A DNA stretch of 41,958 nucleotides from Prasinococcaceae sp. CCMP 1430 (taxonomy: Eukaryota > Prasinodermophyta > Palmophyllophyceae > Prasinococcales > Prasinococcaceae), in the NCBI GenBank assembly GCA_013416795.1, contig RQSC01000024.1:225982-267939 (forward strand). The letters run 5' to 3'. Below, piece after piece: positions 1,930 to 35,206 of the stretch. Numbering within the stretch: the first letter of the stretch is position 1; the number at the start of each line of letters is the position of its first letter. Made by a program: the position numbers and the translations under genes. A model generated the notes under the pieces. That model searched no databases and was not told the origin of the DNA. It worked only from the letters and a program-made list of their open reading frames with translations.

Positions 1930-3302
1930 CTCCGCGTGACGCGTGCCCGTCCCCGCGCACCCGCCCGCGTTCCCGTTCCGTCCCGGCGCCCCGCGCACGG
2001 CCCGCGCCGGCACTCGGCAGCCCCTCATCGGAAGGCGTCCCGCCGCGGCTGCGGCTGGATCCCTGCCGGGGTTCCTCACGAACCCACCTGCGATACGCAC
2101 CTGCCTGAGTTGGGCCCATGATTGTCAATGATTCGTGGGTTGGAGGGCGGCGGCCGACGGGGTTGCTAACGAGCCTCCGATCATTCCGCCGCCTCGGCGC
2201 GGCGCTCGGCCTGCGAGGCAGCGTGGTGAGGGCGGGGGTGGAGACTGGCTGGGGATGTGACCTGAACCTGACTGATGGTGGTGGGGAGCTCGATCGAAAC
2301 GCGTGCGCGGCTCCACGTCGACGGCGCCGACGACGGCCTGACTGGCGCCCGCCCGCCAAAGGGCCGAAGTTTCGGTCGAATATTTGGAAGGCCCATCGGA
2401 TCGTCGGTCCGAGGCGCAAGTGTCGGGTCTCGGCATTTTCGCATTTCGGGGCGTTGGTTGGCTGGTTGGCGTTGGTTGGCGGTCGGATCGACGGGCGATT
2501 TGATCGGGCGTCCGGAAAATTTAGAGCTCGGGGCGGCGGGCGCAGTGTGGCAGGCGCACACAAACCCGCGCTTGGCGAAGCTCGCTCCGAAGCCAGCCCC
2601 CCACGTGCCGGCGAGGCGGCGTCGGCGGATGATGGATCGGCTCAGCGGCGCGCTGATGGGCGCGACGCGAGCGTCGCCCTCGTGGGAAATCTGATGAGTC
2701 TGGGTGCTGTCGTGTCAGGCGGGACGGGCGTCGCGTCGGGGGCGTCCGAGGCCGGGCGCGCTCCCTCCCCCCCGTGTTCTGAATGGTTCTCGCGGTCGTG
2801 CCCGCCGGCCCGTGGCGCTGCGCCGAGGCTCCGACCGGGCGAGATCATCCGGGGCCGCTCGAGGGGGGAAGCGCCGGCGCGCACTTCGCCGCCGCTCCCC
2901 GCCCCGCCCCCGTTCGAAGATCGAACCCGTTTCCATCGGAGTCTCCCGGTCTTTCGCACGGGTGCGACCCCGCATCACCCCGGACAGACCGGGGTTCCCA
3001 AGGGGCACGGAACGAGCCCCACCGCGGAAATTCGGAACGGCGGCGCGAAGGGGCGCGCTGAGTGGCGCACTGATTCGGAGGTCGGATGCATTCATTCGCG
3101 CCATCACATCACGCAATGCGAACAGCTGCGCGCAGGCGGGGGGCGCGCCGGCGGCTGGGGGTCGCCACTTGGAGCAGCGCGGCGGCGGGATCGGTCGCGC
3201 TGCCAGCGCCGTCGCGGGCGCGGCGCGCTACGCACTGGCGGCGGGCGACGAGGTGTGACCGGGATGGCGCGGTGAGTGTGACCTCTCGGCGTGTAACCCG
3301 CA
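1930..3302. other. Intergenic region between P450 and glucan synthase genes
   Basis: About 1.37 kb of GC-rich sequence follows the P450 stop. It must hold the P450 3' end and the promoter and leader of the synthase gene. A long open frame (2118-3275, plus) is Arg/Gly/Pro-rich and looks like chance openness in GC-rich DNA. I see no TATA box, repeat array or RNA gene. Confidence 0.5.
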
Positions 3303-6035
3303 ATGGCGGAGGGCGGCGCCGAGGGCGCCGGCGCTGCGGGGGGCGGTGCGCCAGCTTCGCAGGCGGCGGCCGCCGAGACGCAGGTGGATACTGCTGCCTG
3401 CGATGAGGTGCAGCCGCCCATGCCGCCGCCGCCTGCCGCGACGGGCGAGTCGCGGCCATCGAAGCCACGACGGTGCCGCCGACAGCAGTCGGAGCACATC
3501 GCGGCGCAGCTCGACGAGCACAGGCAGCTGCAAAGAGATCTCGTGGTCTTGCATCGGCAGCGGTCGCGGCGACGGCTCGCGAGCGAGGGCGGCGGCGGCA
3601 GTGAGAGCGGCGGCAGCGACAGCGGTCATAGCGGCAGCAGCGGCAGCAGCAGCAGCGGAGCGGAGAGCGACAGCAGCGATAGCTCTGCGCCGGGTACGCA
3701 CACCCCTCATGCGTCGACCAGTGACGACGAAGAAGAGGCGGCGAGCGCGCCAAGCATCGTCATCGGTCACGAGGTCCCACGGGAGCTTGGCGAGGTGGTT
3801 GTTCGACGCAAAGCGCGGTTGAGCGAGCGAGCGCGCAGCAGCGGTAGCAGCAGCTGCAGCGTTGGCACCAGCGGCGAGGCCAGCGAGGGGAGCGAGAGCG
3901 GCGAGGCCGGCAATGCGACCACGCCGACCGGGCACGCCGGCGCCGACGTGCGAGACGACGGCGGTGAGGATGGGCATGAGACCGCATGCGACGACGACGA
4001 CCAGGCCGAGACTGAGGAAGCCAAGAACAAGGCGCCCCGCAAAGCGAGCCAGCGGGGCATCGAGCTTTACTTCAAAGTCTGGACGACCTTTGCCGTGGTC
4101 GCCGCCGTTCTGAACGGCCTCAACGTCAAGTGGACGCACCTGAGTGCATGGTCCATTCCGCTCGCGGTCATCCTCTTCATCGTGCAGTGCGCGCTGCAGT
4201 GGTCCGCTTGCGAAATCCCGCTGATCTCCTTTGCCACGCTGCTCGTCACGCCCCCGGAGGATGAGAAAGCCGACGGCAGCAAGCTCACGGTCGCCATCAA
4301 CTACAACCTGCTGGCCAGTGACAAGCTCGAGGTCGAAGCCTGCTTGGGCAACGCATACGAGGCGTACATAGGCAATCTTGCACCCATCGTTTTGAGCATA
4401 TTGGTGAGCGCGACGGGCGACCCGGACCTCAAGAACTACGAGATGGAGTACCGGGACAGGTGTCGCGAACAGATACGCGAGCTGGTGATGACAGAGGGCG
4501 CGGCGGTGTGCGCAGGCGGCGAGGCGGCGGAGGCGGTGGACGTCGGGCGGCGCAAGCGGCTGTACGAGCCCGAGCTCGCCGCGGGCGCTGCGCTCGAGGA
4601 CATCGCCGAGCGCGCGGCGCTGGACTTCATGGTGGTGCAGCGCGTGACGCGCGTGCTGCGCAAGTGCGGACAATACCAGGATTTGATGATACTGTCCGAG
4701 CGCTCCAACGTGACGTACACCTACTGCGACCCGAAGCAGTACAACGAGGCTGCACGTGAGGGCGGCGGGCCCATGTTTCATCCCAGCGCGGACGTGAGCC
4801 GGGTTGAGGGCCGCCGCATCGACTACGTTCTCGTGTTGGACGGAGACACGGGCGTGGTGAAGGACTCGCTGGCCGAGCTCATGTCGGTTGCTGCCGCCAA
4901 CCCCGACCGCGCCATTGTGCAGCCTGCAATCAAGCTCTTCGCCAACCCAGACCAGCCGCTCTTCATGCACATTGACGCGATGCGGCAGGACCTGTGCGAG
5001 CCCATCTCGGCGGCGCTGACCACTCTGCTCGGGCGCTCGGGCTTCTTCGGAAAGGGGCTCATCAACAGCCGCCTGTACATAGACAAGCTGCTGGGAACTC
5101 CCGACAAGCTCATCGAGCAGGTGCCCATAGACGTCCTGTCGCACGATACGTTCGAGGCCGCGGCCACCGGCCCGTTGTACGTCAAGGGCGTGCATCTCCT
5201 GGAGGAACCTTGTGGTAACTACACCACCTGGGACATTCGCGAGTGCAGATGGAACCGAGGCGAGCTCGTGCTGTCGCATTACTTCTTCCCAGAGACCGCA
5301 GGCGTGTGGTTCACGCGGGCGATGAACTACGTGCGGCCGCTCATGGGCAAGAAGAAGCCGCCCGTGTTGCACCTGCGCACGGAGACGCACCTCGATGAGC
5401 CAGGCGCGTACATCGCGCACTCGGCGCTGCGGCAGATGCTGCTGAAGCCCTCGCTGCTGCTGTACATCGTGCTGCAAACGATGGTGCCCAATCTGCTGTG
5501 GTACCCATGGCAACCCATCTGCATCGTCATGTTTATGCTGCTCGTGCTACCCAAGTTCGCAATCGCGCGCTGGGGCAACCTGCATTTGCTCGTCTTGGAC
5601 ACCATTTGCTCGATCTTGCAGTTCACGCCGGAGCCCATCATGGGCACGCTGCGCGGCTACAACTCGTGCTACGCTCACATCACGGGCGTCTCGGGATGGG
5701 TGCCGCAATTCAAGGTGGAGCAGGAGTTTGCCAGCTGCAACGCACTGCTCGCGAGCTTTCGGTTCCTCTGGAAGGTGTGCTTGGTCGGCACGGTCAGCTC
5801 GGTGTGCGTCATTATCTTCCTCCCCAGCTCATGGCTGATGCTAATCACGCTCGGGTCGACCGCCTTGCTGCCGTTCTACTGCGCAATCACGGCCGTCTCG
5901 CCTGACGACTATGCGGCAATGGGGCAGCAGGCGGCTGAGCTCCCCGGTCGCATGGTCCAGCTGTTCATCGCAGGGGTCAAGCGGCTCGCGAAGACGTGTT
6001 ACAGTGGTGGCTCCGATGTGGAGCTCGCCGCATGA
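3303..6035 (+). CDS. Membrane family-2-type glucan synthase, NdvB/OpgH-like
   Basis: Single-exon gene of 910 codons; ATG 3303 has a G at +4 and sits just after a stop-containing leader. Residues 1-250 are low complexity: Ser/Gly runs, then acidic clusters. Two membrane segments follow (about 257-275 and 282-300). The cytosolic transferase core shows LDGDTG (512-517, nucleotide-sugar/metal DxD), GFFGKG (580-585), LSHDTFE (612-618, likely catalytic Asp) and RECRWNRGE (646-654, the R..RW motif). At least three further membrane helices lie at about 717-755 and 820-862. The GKG...SHD...RW order and spacing resemble bacterial cyclic beta-1,2-glucan synthases and OpgH more than plant CesA, whose motif is QxxRW. 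It probably polymerises UDP-glucose into a beta-glucan at a membrane. The phosphorylase-like C-terminal half of bacterial NdvB is absent. The product is not determinable from sequence. Confidence 0.8.
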   Translation: MAEGGAEGAGAAGGGAPASQAAAAETQVDTAACDEVQPPMPPPPAATGESRPSKPRRCRRQQSEHIAAQLDEHRQLQRDLVVLHRQRSRRRLASEGGGGSESGGSDSGHSGSSGSSSSGAESDSSDSSAPGTHTPHASTSDDEEEAASAPSIVIGHEVPRELGEVVVRRKARLSERARSSGSSSCSVGTSGEASEGSESGEAGNATTPTGHAGADVRDDGGEDGHETACDDDDQAETEEAKNKAPRKASQRGIELYFKVWTTFAVVAAVLNGLNVKWTHLSAWSIPLAVILFIVQCALQWSACEIPLISFATLLVTPPEDEKADGSKLTVAINYNLLASDKLEVEACLGNAYEAYIGNLAPIVLSILVSATGDPDLKNYEMEYRDRCREQIRELVMTEGAAVCAGGEAAEAVDVGRRKRLYEPELAAGAALEDIAERAALDFMVVQRVTRVLRKCGQYQDLMILSERSNVTYTYCDPKQYNEAAREGGGPMFHPSADVSRVEGRRIDYVLVLDGDTGVVKDSLAELMSVAAANPDRAIVQPAIKLFANPDQPLFMHIDAMRQDLCEPISAALTTLLGRSGFFGKGLINSRLYIDKLLGTPDKLIEQVPIDVLSHDTFEAAATGPLYVKGVHLLEEPCGNYTTWDIRECRWNRGELVLSHYFFPETAGVWFTRAMNYVRPLMGKKKPPVLHLRTETHLDEPGAYIAHSALRQMLLKPSLLLYIVLQTMVPNLLWYPWQPICIVMFMLLVLPKFAIARWGNLHLLVLDTICSILQFTPEPIMGTLRGYNSCYAHITGVSGWVPQFKVEQEFASCNALLASFRFLWKVCLVGTVSSVCVIIFLPSSWLMLITLGSTALLPFYCAITAVSPDDYAAMGQQAAELPGRMVQLFIAGVKRLAKTCYSGGSDVELAA

Positions 6036-7271: not shown

Positions 7272-9832
7272 TCACTCGGGCCCATCCCCGTGCGTGCTGG
7301 CGGCACTGCTCGAGAAAGCCGACTGCACGAGGCGGAGTCTGCGTTGACTAGTGCTCTGCTCCTCCGCGTGCGGACCGAGACCCTCGCTTGAGGTCGCCGA
7401 CTGCACGCGGCGCAAGCTCGAAGTCTTGGTGATCACGCGCGATACCGCCTTGCTGCGTGCCGCCTTTCGCGCGTCGATCGCCTCCTGCGCGCAGGATTGC
7501 ACGACGGGGAATTGGGCGAGCAGCGGCGCGACCGCATCGCGGTGCAGCGTGAGCACCTCGCAGAGCTCGGTCGCAACCACTGTGGCCGTTCTTCTTTCTG
7601 AGAAGAGGCACGCGTTCTCCCCGAAGTTGCTTCCTTGGCCAAGCGTGGCCACCACAACACCGCCGTCCAGGACGATGGATACTTGGCCCTTGACGATGAA
7701 GAACATTTCGTCACCGATGTCACCTTTGCTCACGACCTGGTCGCCGGCCAAGATGAGCTGGGGTGTGACGCATCGAACGAGCGCCTTCACAAAGGAGAGG
7801 GTTTGCTGCTCGTCTCGCGCAAATGATGCGGACACAAATCCAACCTTCAGCAAGAACTTCGCGTACAAATGCATCGACACCTCGGTCTGCATGAATGACG
7901 GGAGGTCGCCGAGAGTGTCTTCCATGCTGCTTGACTGGAACCCTCCCAGCCGCTCGAACAGAGTGTTGTAGTAGGTGAAGAGCCGGTGACGCAGTTTCGC
8001 TGGCAGCTGGTTCGTGTGGCAAAAGCGCGTGACCTCATCCATGCGATTCCGATACCGGATGGCGCGCACGTCGCTGGCCTCGGTCAGCTGGCCCACAGCA
8101 TTCACAAGCTGCGCGAAGAGGAAGAGGCCGAGCACAGAGACGAGAAAGGTGAAAACGACTTCGAGCGTCGTCACCGGGGTCGAAACGTTGCCGCTCGTCA
8201 TCGCACTCCACGCCCACCAGAGCGCGCTCACGTACGCCGCCAAGGGGCCGTGGGATGCCTCAGTGATCCCATAGAACTCTTGGTACTGCCAGCGCTCCAC
8301 TGACGCGAGGAACAGAAATGCGCACGCCACAATATGCGTAAGCACAAAGCCGTAGTATGCAAGGGACAGAAAGTAGGTCGCGACAGGCCCGAGTGTCCGT
8401 TCCGCGAGGTGTTGCGTCCCGCGCGCCATCTTGCCAAGGTAGTGAGAGGACAGGAGGAGCCGGGGGATGCGCGCCAGAGCGCGCGTCTGCGACGCCGCCA
8501 GGCCGGGCATGGCGGGGTTCAGGCGCGCGAGGTTCAGCAGCAGCTGCCATGGCGTACAGGCCACCAGCCGCTGGGCCACCCCCCGGTACCACCACCAGGC
8601 CATGCCCCCATTCCCGGACGCCTCCCGCTCGCGTCGGTGCCACGCCTCGAAGTCGACGTTGTGCTCCGTCCGGTTTGCAGTCGCCGACGCAAGAGCGAGC
8701 TCCTCGATGTCCACCGCAACGGCGAGATAGCGCACGAGGTGAATCACAGTAAGAGTGTCGGCCAGCGCATCCACCCAGCCCAACGTCACGAGCAGCTCGT
8801 CCTCAAGCTCGAACGCGCGGAGCATGGGTCCGATGGCGGCCCCAGTCGTCACGACCAGCCAGTTGTATAGGAGCACAGCGCCATTGAGGAATGCCCACCA
8901 TGTATCATTGGCGGCGGCCGTACGGCGCAGCGCCACCACCGCATCATGCTCGTGCCACCTCTTGGCCGGGTGACCGGCCGCGAGCATCTGCGCGGCGCGT
9001 GACATGCCTATCAGCGCGGCAACGGCTTTCAGCCTGCCGCTGAGCGTGCGCCAGCGAGCCCTCGCCACCGCCTGGCGGCGCGCCTTGCGCGTTCCGATTT
9101 CATCGCTGTCCAGCTGGCGCGCGCGCGCGACGAACGAAGAGAATCTAGCGGCTGTCCCGCGCCTCATGTTTGTCTGCTTGCGCTGTAGAAGCCCCAGACC
9201 ATCGAGCGCTTCTGACGTCTGGGGAGAAAAGGAGGGACACGCATGGCAGAGGGAGTCGTCGGTGGTTGCGTGAGTGCCACACTCGCAGTCGACGCGCCAG
9301 CAACAATGCTCTGCATTGCACGCACACGCACCTTCTTCGCTTCGCTGGCCCACGCGCGTGCACCCGACCTGCGGCCAAGCATTCTTTGGGCCATGCGCGC
9401 CACGGAGAAGACCGAGCTGGTACCACCGGCCGGTGCGGAGTCATGTTCGTCCGTGGCAGCGTCTGCATCTGCGTTGCCACCAAAATTGCTGGTGGTGGCA
9501 CTGGTCGCAGTTCCCTGCGTGGGCTGCTCGCGCGCTTGCAAGGGCGTGGCCGCCTGCCTGCCGTTGCTGCGAACGCGCCCCGTGGCTTGGCTTTGAGGTG
9601 TGCCGCTGCCGGGAGCAGATACAGGCACCTCAGTGTTTGCTGCGGCTGTTGAGGCGCCCATGGGAGCGGCTGCGCGTTGCGCTAGCCGCTGCCACGGCCG
9701 GGACGGGGGCGCCTTAGTAGGAGGCGATGGGCGCGGTGACGATGGCGTTGGCGGTGCCGACGACCTGAGCCCGTTGATGCGCTTGCGAACCCATCGCTGC
9801 AATCTGCTCGCCGCAGAGACGTCAGAGCTCAT
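7272..9832 (-). CDS. Cyclic-nucleotide-binding voltage-type cation channel (CNG/EAG-like), two exons
   Basis: Joining complement(9332-9832) to complement(7272-9218) gives 815 residues. The intron 9219-9331 has donor AAG|GTGCGT and acceptor CTCCCCAG, phase 0 on both sides. ATG is at 9832 and TGA at 7272-7274. Exon 1 encodes a basic then Ser/Pro/Ala-rich cytosolic tail. Exon 2 holds six membrane segments including an S4-like stretch RALARIPRLLL, a pore loop WWAWSAMTSGNVSTP (about residues 500-516), a C-linker with YRNRMDEV and LPAKLRHRL, and a cyclic-nucleotide-binding domain (about 642-742) with GDEMFFIVKGQV and the phosphate cassette FGENACLFSERRTATV, whose Arg is kept. It is probably a plasma-membrane or organellar ion channel modulated by cAMP or cGMP. 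The filter lacks GYG/GFG, so ion selectivity is unclear. The C-terminal tail after 742 is Ser-rich. Confidence 0.87.
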
Positions 9833-13999: not shown

Positions 14000-16900
14000 T
14001 TACAACAGATCCGGCGCGTTGCCGCCCGCGGGCCTGCGCGTGAGCAGCCGCGCGTCCTTCCAGGCTGACAGGGAACACCAGCTCTGCTCTTTGGGTGGAA
14101 TCGCGGTGCGCGGGGCCTCTTCAAGCCAGTAGTGAGCGCGCGAGCTCTGTCCAGGGTCGTACACCCCAAAGGGATTTTCCTCCGTGACGCGCGTGAGCGG
14201 GCGCCATCGCGTTGGCCGCGCCTCGCGCGTGACCAGCGTGAGGTTGCTCGCCTCGAGCGGTATTTCCACCACCACCTCTTCACTGGTCGAAACCAACGCA
14301 TCCCAGGCCAGCACGCCATCCACGTACACCTCAAAGCGCGCGCCGCATTGCGGCACGGTGGCGTTGCACTCACCGCAGCTCGCGTCGTCCTGCACAATGC
14401 CTGCCTTGGCCGCGAAGCCGCTGAATTCGAGCCCCAGCGCGCGGATGGCGTCCAGGCGGAACGCAATGGCCGTACCGGGCGGGGCGCCCACCCCACGCCC
14501 CCGTGGTCGGCGCGCTGACTCTGGGAAGAGCAAGTTGCCCTCCGGATCCGCCCCGGGTGGCTTGGGGGCGATCGGATGCGACACATCGATCTCTCGATAC
14601 AGGGGGTCGGGCGAGCCGCTGCAGTCTGGGCAGGGCCGCCCGCTCAGCACTTGCAGGTGGGTTGATGTGCAGTCGCCGCCATTCCCTGCTCCTTTCACGC
14701 CATCGTATGTGCTGGATGGTCCCGCGCTCGCTTGTGAGAGCGACCCATCGCCGCAAGCCAGGGGCACGCCAAGCGGGGCGCCCATGTAGCAGCTCAGGAA
14801 GAGTGACACCTGCGAGTCCAGGGCCTCGTCCTCGCAAAGCGTCGAGGCGAGGCCCAGCACGCGGCGCGCGCATCCGCGCGTGGGATGCGCGTCGTAGAAG
14901 TCGTCGCATTCACACTCGCCAGTCTCGTAGCGGCACTTGCCGTGGCCAGAACACTGCTCAGGGCAATGAGTGAACTCGCATGCGACCCCAAAGTGTGGCC
15001 AAGCACACATGCACTCGCCGGCATGGTAGTCGCACGCGCCCCGGCCGTTGCAGGTCATAGGCACGCGTCCGAAGCGCGCGAGCAGCGCGTTTTCCTGCCG
15101 CTCGAGTGCAGCAGCCTCTTGCGCGAAAAGGCGCGCACGGCTGGGAACGCCGCGGCTGGGCAGCGAGCCGAGCTCTTCGTACAGGTCTGCACGGGCGCGC
15201 TCCGCATCTGCGGCATCGTAGAATTGCAGGTACAGCACGGCCTGATCGACAGGCAGCGAGGGGTCTCGACCTCCAATGGGGTCGGCATTAGGGACCTCGC
15301 CAAGTCGCGCCAGTAGCTCACTGTTCCCAGAATTTGGCACCCCATCGCCAGTGTCGAGATACGCCAGCTGCGCGGGGTCGCCATAATATGGCGCCTCGAG
15401 CAGGCCGCCGCCGAAATTCTCCGAGCGCAGCGTTCCACCGCCAAGGAATGGCTTCGGGATGAGGGGCAGAAGCTTTACTTCCACGAGCCTGCCATACGTC
15501 TTCCCGTACATCTCCTCATAGTATGCCTCGCCTGCTGAAAAATTGGCGTCTGGCACCACCATGCGATTGCGTGGGCACGCGCGCAGGCTGCAGTCGCCTC
15601 CGAAAAACGGGGCATAGCACGCGCACTTGCCGGTGCCACCAACGCAGCGACGTTCACCAGTCTCAGGGTTAGACTCACATTGGCGCTGGTCGTCGCACGC
15701 GCCGTTGCCCGTGCAGTTCGCTGGACAAAGCACGTGTGAGCAGTCGTCGAATGTGTACCCTTCGTAGCACTCACATGCCGGTGGAAATACTGCGGTATTG
15801 CACCATCCATGCCCTGCGCAGTCGTTGAGACAGCGACTCGCGCGCTCGGAAACTAACACTCCCAGCTCGCGCAAGCGATGCTCAAGAGGGCCATGCCCGC
15901 GCTCTGTGAGCTCCTCACTCATGGCCGCCAGGCCGTCTTCCAGGTGGTGCGCAAGGCCATCCGCACGCACCACGCGCATGCGCGTGGCGTAAGAATGGGG
16001 CGGCGTCGGATACGGAAATGAGTGGTCAATGTCGAGCGTCACTGCCACCAGCTGCTCGTCGTCCACTTCCGTGTACCCAAAGCCGTTTGGCAATCCCGCC
16101 TCGGCAAGGGCGAGCTCTACTTGCGAGTGCAGCCGTGGCAGGTGCACCACTAGAAGCGACGTGCCAGGCGTCCACTCTGGCGCGTACTCTTCAGGCAGCC
16201 CTGCGTACTCTTCGTAGCGCCTCGCGTACTGCGAGCACCTATCCGAGGCCGCGCGCATCAGGTCAACAATATCGTCGGACGCCACCGCCCGCCGGGCGAG
16301 GTCTTCGTAGGGCACATCGGCAGGTTCGAGCACGACGCTCTCGATGCTGATGCCTCCTCGGCCGAATCGCACGTCCAAGACGTGCTCGCTGTTGTACGCA
16401 TCGAAATCGCATGAGACTGTGTAGTTGGACGGTTTCGTCGAGCAGAGCGTCTCGATGAGCACGCGCAGCCGTGTGCCGGTGTGCTCGAGCACACGAGAAC
16501 CCTTCATCGCGCCGCTGGAGAGCGCGTCCTCCAGCTGTGCGAACCAGCCGCCCAGGCTCTTGCCGCGGGCCACGGGGCCGCCCACACGCACAGCAAGCAC
16601 GCGCGCATGCTGCGCGGCTATCGCCGAGCGCGCACGCACACCCAGGTCACGTACGGCCAAACCCATGCCCGCAACTTCGGCCGCGTCAAGCACGCGCTCA
16701 ATCTCGGCCTCCCTCAGCCACGGCTCGGCCAACAGGCCCGTCAGCAGCGTCCTGAGCGCAGATTCGGCCTTGCTGCGCCCATCCACGAGTGCGATGCCGG
16801 CGGCATCCTCAGGCAGCATGCCCACAGAGCCCGGCGCAGGCACGTGCTGATGATAACCGAGCGCCTTCGCTCGCAGCTGCGCCGCCTCGTGTTCTTGCCT

Positions 16901-19139
16901 CGTGGGGAAGAGCATTTGCCCCTCCGTCTCAGACAACAAGCTTGGCAGGGGAGCGACCTCGACGAAGAACGTCTGACGCACCACATAGATATGGTCGGTG
17001 GCCTCGAGCACAACACGGTGCCTGCCGGGCCTCGCGGCTTCCATTGCCGACTCCGGCACCTCCACGTCCGAGCGAAGCGGAATCCCGGATAGCACTTGCG
17101 CAAAGTCATCGTACACAAGCCAGACGGGCAACTCAATGGCCGAGATGGTCACGCCGGCCTGCTCGAAGGCAGCATCCGCGTCGCGCGCCACTGGCGTGTA
17201 CATGTACAGGCTGTCTTCCGCAATCTCAAGCGGCGGCGAGGACACGAACACCGGCGGGTCTGCGTAAGTGAAGCCACGCAGGGGTACGCCCCAGCGCGGG
17301 TCGACCTCGCCTGGCGCGCAGTCCGTAAACGGGTACTCCTGGCTCTCCGCACCGCAGTGGCCGGACTGATGCCCACCGAAGGGCCCATGCTTGAGGTTGC
17401 GATCGTAGTCTCCCACTACGACGCTCACGGTGACGCCCACGCCCTCGCCTGGCGGCGTGAGGCACACCAGCGAGCCGCGCTGCGTCATTCTAAGCTCGGT
17501 GCATTCTTGCTCGCCGACGAAGACCGTGAGGCCGTCCACGCTCGAACCAAAGTTCTTGCCGGTAATCTCAATAAGCGTGCCGCCCGAGCGTGGCCCCGCG
17601 AAGGGCTCGACGGAGAGAACCTGCACCCACGCGCGTGGCACGACGAAGCTGTCCAAAGCCATCCATCCGAAGTCGCAGCAGCGGTAGTCGATGATGTCAA
17701 GCACGTACTTCTCGCCGACGGCATTGAGCTCGCGCAGCTGCTCTGCGCTGAGCTGCTCGGCCATCCAGAATCGCCGCGAGCGCACAGGCACCGTCGCCAC
17801 GCGATAGTTGTCTCGAAGACGCGTCAGCGCCACACCCAGTGAGCCCTCACCCACCGCCGCCAGGTCCAATGTCGCACGCGGCATGGCTGGGACGCTCACA
17901 TCCCCGCCGTTGGACCTGAAGGTGAGGTCACCGTCACCGAGCACGAAGGGCACCGAGCGCACGTGCAGCAGGCCGTGAGTGAGCTCGCGACGCTCCAGCG
18001 GGTACGCTGAGCACAGCTGGAAGTGGCCGGACTGTGGAGGCCGGAAGCAGTCCCGCCGGACGGCAAAATTAGGCATGCCAGATGACTGAACGCATGCGCG
18101 TGCGCGTGGGTGCAGAGGGTCAGCAGTGCGCAGCTTGCCTCGATCCTCACCCTGCAAGCGCTCTCGGGCGCACACGGACCTTGAGGAACCAGAACGGCTC
18201 GAATGTGCCCTCCTCGAAGCCCCATCTGAGCGGCTCAACGGTGTAGTACCTGCGCGCGTACGGTGGTACGTTGTGCGGCTGCGAGTGGCCGTATCCGACG
18301 GGATCGTGAGAGTAAAGCCAATCCTCGGGAACGCCGGCGCCCTTAAGACCATATACCTCACGCAATGGCATCCCTGCGCGCCCAGCTCGCGCAGCGAGCT
18401 CCCGCTCCATGATGTGCCGCGCGCCAAAGCCCGCGGCCATCGCAAGCACGAGGTCTGCGTCAACCTCACCCGCCTTGTTCGCCGCATCGGGATTGATGGG
18501 CGCGAAGACGCCGCGCTCGTGCGGGCCGTAGAGCTCCGGGTCCAGGGGCCGATCCCCGACGTAAGGCCCGCTATCCTCTCGAGGCAGCCGGTCGCCGGGG
18601 TAAGCTGCGCGCCTACAGCTCACCCACATGTTGTCGCGATAGCCCTGGGTGTCGGGATCGAGGTCGGGTAGCTTGGAAAATGGCAGCGGCTGGGGTTCGT
18701 GGCCCCCGCTGTAGTGCCCCTGATCCCTCACGCGATCGCCGTCCACTGCGACGCCACACTCGTCGTCCCACACCTCGTACTCCGTGCCACTCATGAGCTT
18801 CCGAGGGCGGTACACGCGGGTGCGCTTCTCCGGGTTGGGCGAGTCCGGGTCGTACGTGTAGTAGCCGTACCGCTCGGGGAGCCCGTTGGACGCGCTTGTG
18901 CGCCACGCATACGTGTGCACGTAACCGGGCGACTCGAGGAATACCTCGTCCTCGCGGTTCTCCTTGCGGAAGAACGCGGCATCGAGGCCCTCGCGGTCGT
19001 CGTCCCAGTGCTCCTCGAGGTCCCATGCGGCGCGCACGGCGCGAGGCGCATGCGAGAGGGCCAGCAGCGCGCACAGCGCTGCTGCGCCGCACGCCGCGCG
19101 CCGCCCGCCCCCATGCGCCTGCGCCTGCTCCGCGCGGCT
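14000..19139 (-). CDS. Very large secreted or cell-surface protein with IPT/TIG, EGF-like and NPCBM-like domains
   Basis: Two exons, about 1,670 residues. Exon 2 (14000-18085) ends at TAG or equivalent at 14000. The intron is best placed at 18086-18179 (AAG|GTCCGT ... GTTCAG), phase 0. Exon 1 begins with a signal-peptide-like core (RRAACGAAALCALLALSHA, ending AVRA before AWDL), but no ATG is in frame; see findings. Domains in order: an unknown Tyr/Pro/Asp-rich region; an IPT/TIG fold (17405-17625, SVEPFAGPRSGGTLIEITGKNF); a cadherin/He_PIG-like segment (16955-17250); a coiled or helical middle; EGF-like modules (about 15560-15850 and 14890-15060, with CxxxCxGxGxCxxxxxxCxCxxGxxGxxC spacing); and a C-terminal NPCBM-like region (about 14220-14480, FEVYVDGVLAWDAL). 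This is a typical adhesion or matrix layout. Function is not known. The end boundary at 19139 is approximate. Confidence 0.7.
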
Positions 19140-31764: not shown

Positions 31765-33731
31765 TCACGCATACGCCTGCTGGGCATCGGAGAGATACTC
31801 GCCGCACGCCTCCTCCCGGTCCGCGCCGTCCGTGGCGCCCTCGGCTTCTTCCGGCTCGGGCTCGGGGAAAGCACCCTTGTGCTTGAGCCAAACCTTGGGG
31901 CGCGCGTGTGGGTCGAAGCCACCGGTGTCATCAGGGCGCTTGGCGTGGCGCGTGACGACAGCACCTTCGACCGCCACGCGCTTCACGCGCTCGACAGGCG
32001 CGTCGGACTTCTCACGCTCAGCCGCTTTCACGAGCACCAGCCGCCGCGCGAAGGCCGTGTGGTCCGTGCCGCGCTTGAACGGCGAATCAAAGGTCTTGCC
32101 GCCCTTGTGCCGGTCGATGGACTCGCAGAGCGACACCTCAACCTCGTCGCCCACCCCGAGCTCGGCATCGCCCATGACCTCGTGCACATGGAAGCGGATG
32201 TTCATGAGACGATGCTCATTCGTGATGTCCACGTCGAGGATCCCGAAGCTGCCGCCCACCGACTTCACCAGCGCCTTGAAGCGGCGGAGTGTCACGTTCG
32301 TAGCACGCCGCGCCTTGGGGTCGCGCTTCGCCGCCGCTGACTGGAATGACACCCAGTCGCCCGGGCGCGGATACGCCTCGCCTTTCGACAGATCGCCGCG
32401 GCCGAAAGGCAACCGCTCGATCAGCCGACCGGTGTCGTCCTCGAAGGGCTCACCGACGGGATCGCGCGGGCGGTTAGGCTCTTCGCTCTTCGCCTTGGAT
32501 GGCGTAGTCTCAGCAGGTGCCTCGGTATCCTCAGCCTCGGCGCCGGCGGCGGTCTCTGCCTCCGTGACGTCGCCCTCAGCCGCGACGGCAGTCTCCTCTG
32601 CGGGCTTCTCCTCAGGCTCCTTGGGCTTCATGCGCCAGTCCTTGAAGTCAGCCTTGGTGCCCGCCTTGATGACGCGCTCGAGCAGGCCGTCGGGAGACGC
32701 GCCGCCGCGGCCGCCCCGGCCACCGCGCCCGCCACCACGACCGCCCGGGCCGCTCCCATCCCCAGCACGCCGCACGATGGTGCCGAAAAGCACCTCCTCG
32801 TCGATGGTGTCGAAGACGGCCGATCCCTTCGGCGCGGCCTTCACGCGCACCGCCACAGTGCGCTTGGAGCGCGGGTCGAGCTTGACGCTGAAGCGCAGGT
32901 CGATGCCGACCGACAGTTGGTCCGGCGACAGGTCCTGCAGCTCGCTGAAGTGGAAGAAAACGTCAGCGGCAGTTTCGCATCGCTTGATGAATCCGTACGA
33001 CTCCGCCAAGCGCGCGACGACACCGAGTTCGGTCTCATCCTCCTTGCGCTCGACCACCTTCACGGCGGTGGCCATGCGCTCGTTCGACTGCTTGTGCACG
33101 CTGACCTGGAAGGACACCGTGTCCCCCGTGGCCGCGGCCTCACGCGGGTTGTCCATGTCGTAGAGGGTGTAGGTCGCGCGGTGCTCCTTCGCCTCGTCCC
33201 CGTCACCTTCGGTGTAGACAATGATGCCAGCATTGCGAGCCTCGCGGCCCGAGGTGGCATCCTTCTCGACCACGCCAGTGAATGTGCCCGAGAGAGACTC
33301 GTCAAACTTCACGGTGCCATGCGGGAGTTTCTCCAGGCGGCTCGCTACTGGCTTGCCCGAGCGCGGGTCTGTCACCACCATGAAGCTGACCTCGTCCTCG
33401 CGCTTGACCCGGCGGACGCCGCTCTCGCCGAAGCAGCACTCGGAGAAGTGGAACCAGAGGCGCGCCTCCGGGCGGTCAGCGCAACGGATGTGCCCGAAGT
33501 TGTCACCCACGGAGGTCACCAAGCCTGTCTCTCTTTCTTGCGTCGGCACGCCCAGAAGCTTCAAGTTGGTCGCGCGCGCGCGGCCACGGTCCGCCCGCTG
33601 CGGCACCATGATGGAGAACTCCACGAGGTCGCCCACGTGCAATCGCTCCGGCGACTTGGTGCTGCCCTCCGCGGCCTCCGCGTCATCGGCTTCCAGGTCA
33701 AAACCCACCGACATTGGCACACGCGACTCCC

Positions 33732-33769
<38 letters not shown>

Positions 33770-34424
33770 CCGCCGCCAGCGCGCGGGGCATCCTGCTCGC
33801 TCCCAGCGGCGGGTGGCACCCCGCCATCGCCCTCTCCCCCGCCGGGAGCAGCGGCCTCGTCGGCAGCGCCCGCGTCGACGTCCAGCTTCTGCACCTCCTC
33901 TGCCGCGGCCGCGGCCGCAGCGTCAGCGGCAGCGCGCTTGTCCTGATCGGGCTGATCGACGCCCTTGAGGGAGACGTTGCCGCGCCTGTTTGCGCCGAAG
34001 AAGCTCACGATGCCGCGGAACACGCCCGGGAGCGGCTCCTCGAACTTAACCGAGCCACGCGGCAGGAAGGTCACGTGCTGCGCCGCCGGCCTGCCCTTGT
34101 TGCCGCCGCTGCCCTGGCCGACGGTGAACTCGACCTCCTGGCCCTGCCTGATGAGCTCGTACATTGTCGGCCGCATGCCGTACGCTGCCGCGCCCTCCGG
34201 GGAGTCCTGTGGCGGCACGATCTGGCTCACGTGCGCGAAGACCTGCTCGTCGCGGCCAACGCACTTGATGAAGCCGAAGGACTCGCGCACGGACACCACC
34301 ACACCACGCTCGCGCGGCCCGGGAGGGGGCCCGGCCTCGTGCGACGCGCGCCCGCCGCCGCCGCCCAGGGGGGCTTCGCTACCTCCGGGCGCGCCAAGGT
34401 GCACACGTCGACCGTGGCGCTCAT
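31765..34424 (-). CDS. CSDE1: CSDE1/UNR-like multi-cold-shock-domain RNA-binding protein
   Basis: The main exon is complement(31765-34308), 847 codons plus TGA 31765-31767. Cold-shock motifs recur with canonical cores RESFGFIKC, GDNFGHIRC, AESYGFIKR and GGSFGILDV. Between them are non-canonical half-repeats GVFRGIVSFF, GTFTGVVEKD and VLFGTIVRR. This alternating array is the layout of UNR/CSDE1, which binds mRNAs and steers translation and decay. A polyglutamine run of about 12 residues (33734-33769) and an RGG-like patch (about 32690-32760) are interspersed. The 5' end is uncertain: no ATG is in frame with the main exon. A 42-nt first exon from ATG 34424 with a 74-nt intron (34309-34382, GAG|GTAGCG ... 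GCGAG) keeps phase and would give 861 residues. An indel is the alternative. It is divergent from, and overlaps, the 2H gene. Confidence 0.8.
33734..33769. repeat. CTG trinucleotide run (polyglutamine-coding on minus)
   Basis: Twelve CTG units on plus (33734-33769), read as CAG on minus, encode polyglutamine within the CSDE1-like protein. Such runs vary in length between strains. Confidence 0.9.
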
Positions 34425-35206
34425 CCCCCCGGACTGCGCATGGGAGCGCGTGCAGGCCGCGCGCTACGCCGTGCGCGACAGGGGGCTCTGGAGGTGGCCG
34501 CCGCACGTGGTGCGTGGCGTGACGTGGGGCGGGGCGCACCGTTTGCCGCGCGCCCCAGCTCGCGCGTGCCAGCGCGTTGCAGCGCGGAGCGCTGACTCGC
34601 GCGCTCGCCACGCCGCCGCGCTCTGCGGCTGAGCAGAACCTCCTGTACCCCTTCGCACCCCTGTGCGACGTCGGGGCGCACGTGGACGCGCTCGCCCGCG
34701 CCGCCGCTGAGGTGGAGCCCTTCGATGTGACCCTTGGAGCATTTCGCACCTTCGCCCACCGCCACTCCGCGACGCTGTGGCTCGACCCGGCGTGCGAGCC
34801 GGCCGGCGCCCTCGACGAGCTCCAGGCGGCGCTCATGCGAGCCGCTCCGCTCTTCGACGACCAGCGGAGCCTGCACGGCGGCGTGTTCACGCCGCACATG
34901 TCGATCGCGCACTTCCCTTCGATCAACGCCGCGCGCCGTGCGGAGGAGGAGCTCGCGCGCGAGTGGGAGCCCGTCGCGTGGAGGTGCACAGAGGTCCACG
35001 TGATGGCGCGCGAAGGCGCCGCGGGCCAGTTCAGGCGAGTTTACCGCATCCCGGTCGGCAGCGGCGGGCCGGCCGGCGCCGCGGCGGCGCTGGCGGACGA
35101 GCCGCCGCATTCGTACCCGCACATGCCCGCCGAGCCGCCCGAGTGGTGCGAGCACGCGGCGCGCGGCCGCCGGTACGGCGCGCGCGGGGTCGCATCGTCG
35201 ACGTGA
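34411..35206 (+). CDS. 2H phosphoesterase / 2'-5' RNA ligase superfamily protein, 5' end unresolved
   Basis: Exons 34411-34509 (5' part) and 34637-35206 join across intron 34510-34636 (CACGTG|GTGCGT ... TGAGCAG), phase 0. The join makes PPHV|NLLYPF, the first HxT-type motif in an HxN form. The second motif is PHMSIAHFP (about 34893-34919). The two histidines are the presumed catalytic pair, hydrolysing or forming 2'-5' or cyclic phosphodiester bonds on RNA or nucleotides. The reading STVALIPPDCAWERV precedes them, as in other family members. The frame runs upstream with no ATG until about 1 kb back, inside the antisense of the CSDE1-like gene, so the real start is unknown; a splice acceptor CGCCCAG at 34362-34368 is one option. 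Stop TGA is 35204-35206. Substrate unknown. Confidence 0.72.

Follow-up and report, generated by a model that had tools for sequence, protein, structure and literature searches.

A single-copy algal gene for a stand-alone GT84/OpgH-like membrane glycosyltransferase, a putative glucan synthase that lacks the primer tyrosine of its bacterial relatives

The open reading frame at positions 3303-6035 on the forward strand of the window (the whole stretch of 41,958 nucleotides analysed here) raises the question of whether an alga encodes a relative of the bacterial glucan synthases NdvB/Cgs and OpgH and, if so, what such an enzyme would make. The frame runs from ATG to TGA in the standard code, encodes 910 amino acids and requires no intron. 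By codon position, GC amounts to 61/42/86% in residues 251-910 and to 72/63/80% over residues 1-250, a pattern that suggests coding in both parts, as expected of a frame in a GC-rich genome (68% GC in the window). In addition, the start codon is flanked by a purine at −3 and a G at +4. A chance frame in GC-rich DNA was considered and rejected. An antisense frame of 761 codons lying over the gene (3228-5513, reverse strand), though open too, had no homology support and is probably a by-product of the high GC content. We conclude that ORF 3303-6035 is a real gene, which is present as a single copy in the 24.5 Mb, 145-contig genome.

The family placement of the protein was studied with profile and BLAST searches. 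A profile of 80 NdvB glycosyltransferase (GT) domains was built from plasmid loci and from GTDB genomes, in which 80 bacterial Cgs loci had been collected. This NdvB-GT profile matched the algal protein with 42.0 bits, equivalent to E=5e-11 at a search size of 20,000 sequences. Of 200 shuffled versions, not one was reported at E<=10, and the next best of the 226 ORFs of the window scored 1.8 bits. True bacterial Cgs members reached 605-865 bits with the same profile, indicating that the algal match reflects distant homology and not close membership in GT84. Since the original set had been partly picked by similarity to the query, the profile was rebuilt with the 35 Cgs sequences least similar to it, resulting in 39.5 bits (E 2.6e-10). 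Equivalent profiles of our own gave 12.9 bits (E 0.022) for OpgH and a score below 0, without meaning, for BcsA. The NCBIfam MdoH/OpgH models (NF003955/NF003960) reached 12.7 bits (E 0.02) against a cut-off of 1037. When searched in full length, the protein had no hit above threshold in Pfam, NCBIfam, PHROGs or the PDB sequences, and none of the chitin and cellulose family models of Pfam and NCBIfam reached it; on the core, the sub-threshold Pfam matches were PF13632 Glyco_trans_2_3 (E 0.022) and, on a fragment, Chitin_synth_2 (E 0.32).

A tblastn search of 72,556 plasmid records (7.3 Gb), carried out with no preset family, ranked annotated cyclic beta-1,2-glucan synthases and MdoH first (best E 5e-6). 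Reciprocally, with a bacterial Cgs GT domain as the query, the sole match in the full 24.5 Mb of the algal genome was this gene (E=3e-5). Identity to the relatives was 16-26%, and the best local identity among the 80 prokaryotic relatives kept was about 32%. No relative was detected in viral contigs or phage records scanned with the algal protein, and a scan of the viral contigs with the alignment returned one contig, which carries an ordinary bacterial Cgs. The literature searched yielded no eukaryotic GT84 or NdvB-like synthase. Altogether, these data identify GT84 (NdvB/Cgs) as the nearest family, ahead of the OpgH, BcsA, chitin and cellulose synthase profiles, in agreement with an earlier note made from the sequence of this locus.

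In a tree containing 27 Cgs, 6 OpgH and 9 BcsA-type sequences, the algal protein was sister to Cgs/GT84 (support 99/99) and fell outside the bacterial GT84 clade, which was itself recovered with support 96/90. Its end branch was long (3.58 changes per site), and the AU test rejected neither a forced grouping with OpgH (p 0.224) nor one with BcsA (p 0.225). We interpret this result as pointing to a deep lineage of its own within the GT84/OpgH group, apparently nearer to GT84 but of unsure placement. The NdvB/OpgH-like identity proposed in the earlier note stands as regards the best profile family, but the protein is no clear member of it, considering its 42 bits vs 605-865, its position outside the clade and the loss of a UDP-contacting Asp.

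The fold predicted by AlphaFold with alignment A3 (74 sequences, including 73 bacterial Cgs) had a pLDDT of 72.6 and a pTM of 0.78, with values above 90 in the core; a single-sequence control (pLDDT 37.6) was too poor for use. According to Foldseek, the closest solved structures were those of Cgs (8rf9, 8rfe and 8rf0; E 3.5e-16 to 2.4e-15). VIA likewise placed 8rf9 (Z 24.4, rmsd 6.1, 537 aligned), 8rfe (Z 22.6, rmsd 3.1, 510 aligned) and 8rf0 (Z 21.6, rmsd 3.2, 522 aligned) ahead of BcsA 4p00 (Z 17.6, rmsd 4.4, 464 aligned), with hyaluronan synthases also following Cgs. Since the model was derived from an alignment of Cgs sequences, its resemblance to Cgs is in part a product of the input and constitutes no independent evidence. 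The best viral fold match was a 609-aa giant-virus GT2 protein from Yasminevirus (BFVD A0A5K0U8N8; TM 0.56/0.59, 11% identity).

Residues 1-250 (3303..4052) form a low-complexity acidic tail rich in Ser, Gly and Ala (15%, 13% and 14%, respectively), with 17% Asp+Glu, a net charge of −18 and no W, F or Y, as the earlier description of an acidic, serine-rich N-terminus of 250 residues had it. The tail had no Pfam match and no recognisable Cgs N-terminal scaffold domain; we infer that it probably serves in regulation or sorting. The remainder of the protein, residues 251-910, combines a soluble core with six hydrophobic helices. TM1 and TM2 occupy residues about 252-315 (4056..4247), based on hydropathy and on modelled helices at 252-280 and 286-315. 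They are followed by a GT-A fold core at residues 326-670 (4278..5312), delimited by the alignments, the NdvB profile and the Foldseek/VIA matches to Cgs 8rf9/8rfe/8rf0. TM3 and TM4, at residues about 699-754 (5397..5564; profile, AlphaFold model, alignment and hydropathy), start with ALRQMLLKPSLLL, the counterpart of Cgs NLRRSLvaPalll. The TM4-TM5 interface linker (5565..5741) carries an invariant Trp, W799, in the alignments, and TM5 and TM6 span residues about 814-865 (5742..5897; AlphaFold model and hydropathy), succeeded by a short tail and the stop codon.

The protein ends ~45 residues past TM6, and Pfam analysis of the whole protein revealed no cyclase or phosphorylase domain (GH94) after this helix. 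The absence of a phosphorylase half had thus been correctly anticipated, but the picture of an NdvB that lost only this half is incomplete: the algal protein also lacks the scaffold domain found at the N-terminus of Cgs, the cyclase domain and the primer tyrosine. Phosphorylase-less Cgs proteins exist in bacteria as well, as indicated by three acidobacterial sequences of about 1500 aa (L045:5900-10411, L079:6300-10793 and L090:2090-6556) in which the GT domain, the primer Tyr and PF10091 are kept and the GH94 domain is absent.

To map the catalytic residues, positions published for Agrobacterium Cgs (PMC10901819) were transferred through rhizobial Cgs rows whose spacings (97 residues for D527-D624, 45 for Y694-D739 and 34 for D739-R773) agree with the published numbers. 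The motifs LDGDT (D513, D515), GKG (583-585), LSHD (612-615) and RECRWNRG (646-653) follow one another in this order, and each of their columns aligns with its Cgs counterpart. The KxG motif is present as RKCG (4659..4670; R453 = Cgs R586), and the DxD motif D513-G-D515 (4839..4847) corresponds to Cgs D624/D626, conserved in 73/73 bacterial rows. GKG (5049..5057) is as in Cgs, the equivalent in OpgH being GHN. LSHD (5136..5147) contains D615, equivalent to the catalytic base D739, and RECRWNRG (5238..5261) contains R649 and R652, equivalent to R773 and R776. All the catalytic motifs examined for GT84 (KxG, DxD, GKG, SHD and RxxRWxRG) are therefore present. The earlier note had derived the family from this motif order; the order itself was confirmed, but the contrast of RxxRW with QxxRW does not by itself discriminate families, since [QR]xxRW occurs throughout the clade that comprises GT2 cellulose, chitin/HAS, GT84 and GT21 enzymes (PMC7185993).

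Comparison of 21 catalytic or near-invariant columns revealed 19 identities, one D-to-E change (the D of Cgs RGD is E654 in the alga) and one D527A replacement. The latter corresponds to A370 (codon GCG, 4410..4412), a position that holds Asp in 71 of the 73 bacterial relatives and in OpgH/BcsA, and whose alignment agrees with the 97-residue spacing to DxD. In Cgs, D527 and D624 have been assigned to UDP coordination (PMC10901819); the Asp at the D527 site contacts UDP in BcsA as well. The two exceptions, Firmicutes Cgs GT domains L072 and L041, have Ala and Cys at this site, respectively, and intact motifs elsewhere, indicating that loss of this Asp can happen within the Cgs family. Y694, the tyrosine carrying the glucan primer of Cgs (PMC10901819), is conserved in 73/73 bacterial rows and faces a gap in the algal protein. 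The interface-helix-1 segment (residues 553-576; 4959..5030) is three residues shorter than in Cgs and contains no tyrosine, which indicates that Y694 has been deleted. This segment is modelled as one continuous helix (303-326 in model numbering, pLDDT about 91), whereas the corresponding Cgs segment is a loop reaching the primer chamber (PMC10901819).

The sequence thus displays a GT-A core flanked by TM1-2 and TM3-6, in which DxD is the metal/donor site, SHD the base and RxxRW the acceptor-side motif. On these grounds, the gene probably encodes a stand-alone, membrane-bound, inverting and processive glucan synthase of the GT84/OpgH group, which would make a linear, uncyclised chain, probably from UDP-Glc. 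That the product would be a beta-glucan of some linkage is likewise probable. Both of the nearest families, Cgs and OpgH, make beta-1,2-glucan, which renders a linear chain of this linkage the best single candidate for the product. This linkage is plausible, yet, at 20% identity and with D527A, a guess with the odds somewhat against it, and the product could be new. By analogy with these families, UDP-glucose would be taken on the cytosolic face and glucose added by inverting transfer to the non-reducing end of a beta-glucan. Having no cyclase, phosphorylase, scaffold or primer tyrosine, the algal enzyme would be unable to run the Cgs cycle of Tyr-linked primer, length control and cyclisation. 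Other membrane GT2 synthases start without a protein-bound tyrosine primer, and the algal enzyme would most likely do the same. The linear chain may then exit through the membrane domain of the enzyme itself or through a partner, with the cell wall, mucilage or an osmolyte pool as candidate destinations.

Regarding the host, the genome contains 22 matches to the chlorophyll-binding family, and proteins from two antenna loci (C68, C54; L111, L112) have chlorophyll a/b-type antenna proteins among their best solved structures. These observations indicate a green-lineage alga, so that the haptophyte/stramenopile frame in which the gene had initially been set was wrong. When PDB matches of the antenna proteins are ranked by whole-sequence score, entry 9vfj comes first with its long multi-domain LHCI chains, whose scores are inflated by repeats. 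Exon-by-exon searches of the algal genome gave no match to PF10091 (cyclase) or PF17167 (GH94), an absence that is not absolute, and profile searches of the genome gave none to PF04349 (MdoG/OpgG), PF03552, PF03142 or PF13632. Such absences are weak evidence, since the PF13632 search misses this very gene. No gene cluster was found around the synthase, the next genes encoding a cyclic-nucleotide-binding channel and an MFS/OATP transporter. The tail-to-tail neighbour (7272-9353, reverse strand; 693 aa) carries a domain for cyclic-nucleotide binding (E 3e-16) and matches ion channels weakly. Further along the reverse strand, a 1539-codon open frame (14000-18619) matches IPT/TIG and teneurin-like EGF domains, animal-like adhesion modules in an alga, and another (31765-35040) combines a CSDE1-like domain with several cold-shock domains (E 8e-30).

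The data were also weighed against other interpretations of the protein. It might be a polymerase of the same GT2 clade with another specificity (a different hexose, a 1,3-/1,4-glucan or a HexNAc polymer) that shares only ancient motifs with Cgs and owes its GT84 position to a long branch. The AU test, which allows kinship with BcsA or OpgH (p about 0.22), the end branch of 3.58, the sub-threshold matches to Glyco_trans_2_3 (E 0.022) and Chitin_synth_2 (E 0.32), and the BcsA and HAS folds coming next after Cgs in the structure list are in line with this idea. We nevertheless consider it unlikely: the profiles favour GT84 (42.0 bits vs 12.9 for OpgH and below 0 for BcsA), the protein has Cgs features in GKG and the NLRRSLvaP-like segment, and the chitin and cellulose family models remain below threshold. 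There is a smaller chance still that the replacement of Cgs D527 by Ala370 denotes an enzyme that is weakened, inactive or adapted to a different nucleotide sugar. The conservation of this Asp in 71/73 bacterial relatives and in OpgH/BcsA, its change to Ala (GCG) here and the role of D527/D624 in coordinating UDP (PMC10901819) would fit such a change; on the contrary, all other catalytic residues are intact, which is unexpected under decay, the 910-codon frame is free of stops, and L072 (Ala) and L041 (Cys) are bacterial Cgs without this Asp in which the motifs are otherwise intact.

A recent transfer of a truncated bacterial ndvB, or bacterial contamination of the assembly, appears very improbable. 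The lack of introns, the bacterial family and the single copy would be compatible with it, but the contig encodes eukaryotic-type proteins (cyclic-nucleotide-gated-type channel, OATP/MFS, TIG/EGF and multi-CSD), the best local identity among the 80 prokaryotic relatives kept is about 32%, and the protein has a low-complexity tail and a position outside all sampled Cgs. An ancient bacterial gene transfer may be the origin of the gene.

Returning to the interpretation as a GT84/OpgH-type glucan synthase, what is new on the sequence evidence is a predicted eukaryotic Cgs/OpgH relative that is stand-alone, devoid of the primer tyrosine and not a plain GT84 member. As a natural minimal Cgs, with no primer tyrosine, cyclase or phosphorylase, it would reveal the parts needed for polymerisation alone. 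More tentatively, it might represent a third GT84/OpgH lineage, in a green-lineage eukaryote, whose product, a linear beta-1,2-glucan or some other new beta-glucan, would be made with neither tyrosine priming nor cyclisation and serve the cell wall or mucilage. This would be the first eukaryotic beta-1,2-glucan synthase, and possibly part of the answer to the wall make-up of a prasinophyte without cellulose synthase, although we regard this fuller scenario as doubtful. Prasinoderma coloniale (25.3 Mb, 69.8% GC) is reported to have a thick wall, and its genome paper found none of the enzymes of cellulose, mannan, xyloglucan or xylan (PMC7455551). If the host is a prasinodermophyte, the gene would be a candidate for the wall chemistry that the genome paper left unexplained (PMC7455551).

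Among known systems, chitin and hyaluronan synthases share with the algal protein the fold clade, DxD and the RW motif, but differ in that Chitin_synth_2 matches only a fragment at E 0.32, the algal motif is RxxRW instead of QxxRW, and the genome shows no family match. BcsA and plant CesA-Csl enzymes have in common with it the GT2 fold and membrane domain, [QR]xxRW and interface helices; on the other hand, the algal protein has neither a profile match nor PilZ, carries SHD where they have TED, and PF03552 was not found in the genome. OpgH/MdoH (GT2) builds the backbone of osmoregulated periplasmic glucans, a linear beta-1,2-glucan. Like the algal protein, it is a stand-alone GT between membrane helices with LSHD, RxxRW, an LPK motif in the helix following the GT domain and no 14-residue insert; it differs in GHN vs algal GKG, in the weak profile score (12.9 bits, E 0.022) and in its OpgG partner, whose family PF04349 was not found in the algal genome. 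Cgs differs from the algal protein by its N-terminal scaffold, cyclase (PF10091), GH94 domain, primer Tyr694, D527 (Ala in the alga) and a 14-residue insert before the (I/L)xQP strand, with identity of 16-26%. It nonetheless shares the six-TM plan of TM1-2/GT/TM3-6 (2+GT+4; PMC10901819), the KxG, DxD, GKG, SHD and RxxRWxRG motifs, the interface Trp (W799) and the NLRRSLvaPalll segment after the GT domain, equivalent to algal ALRQMLLKPSLLL, and it is the best profile, BLAST and fold match of the algal protein.
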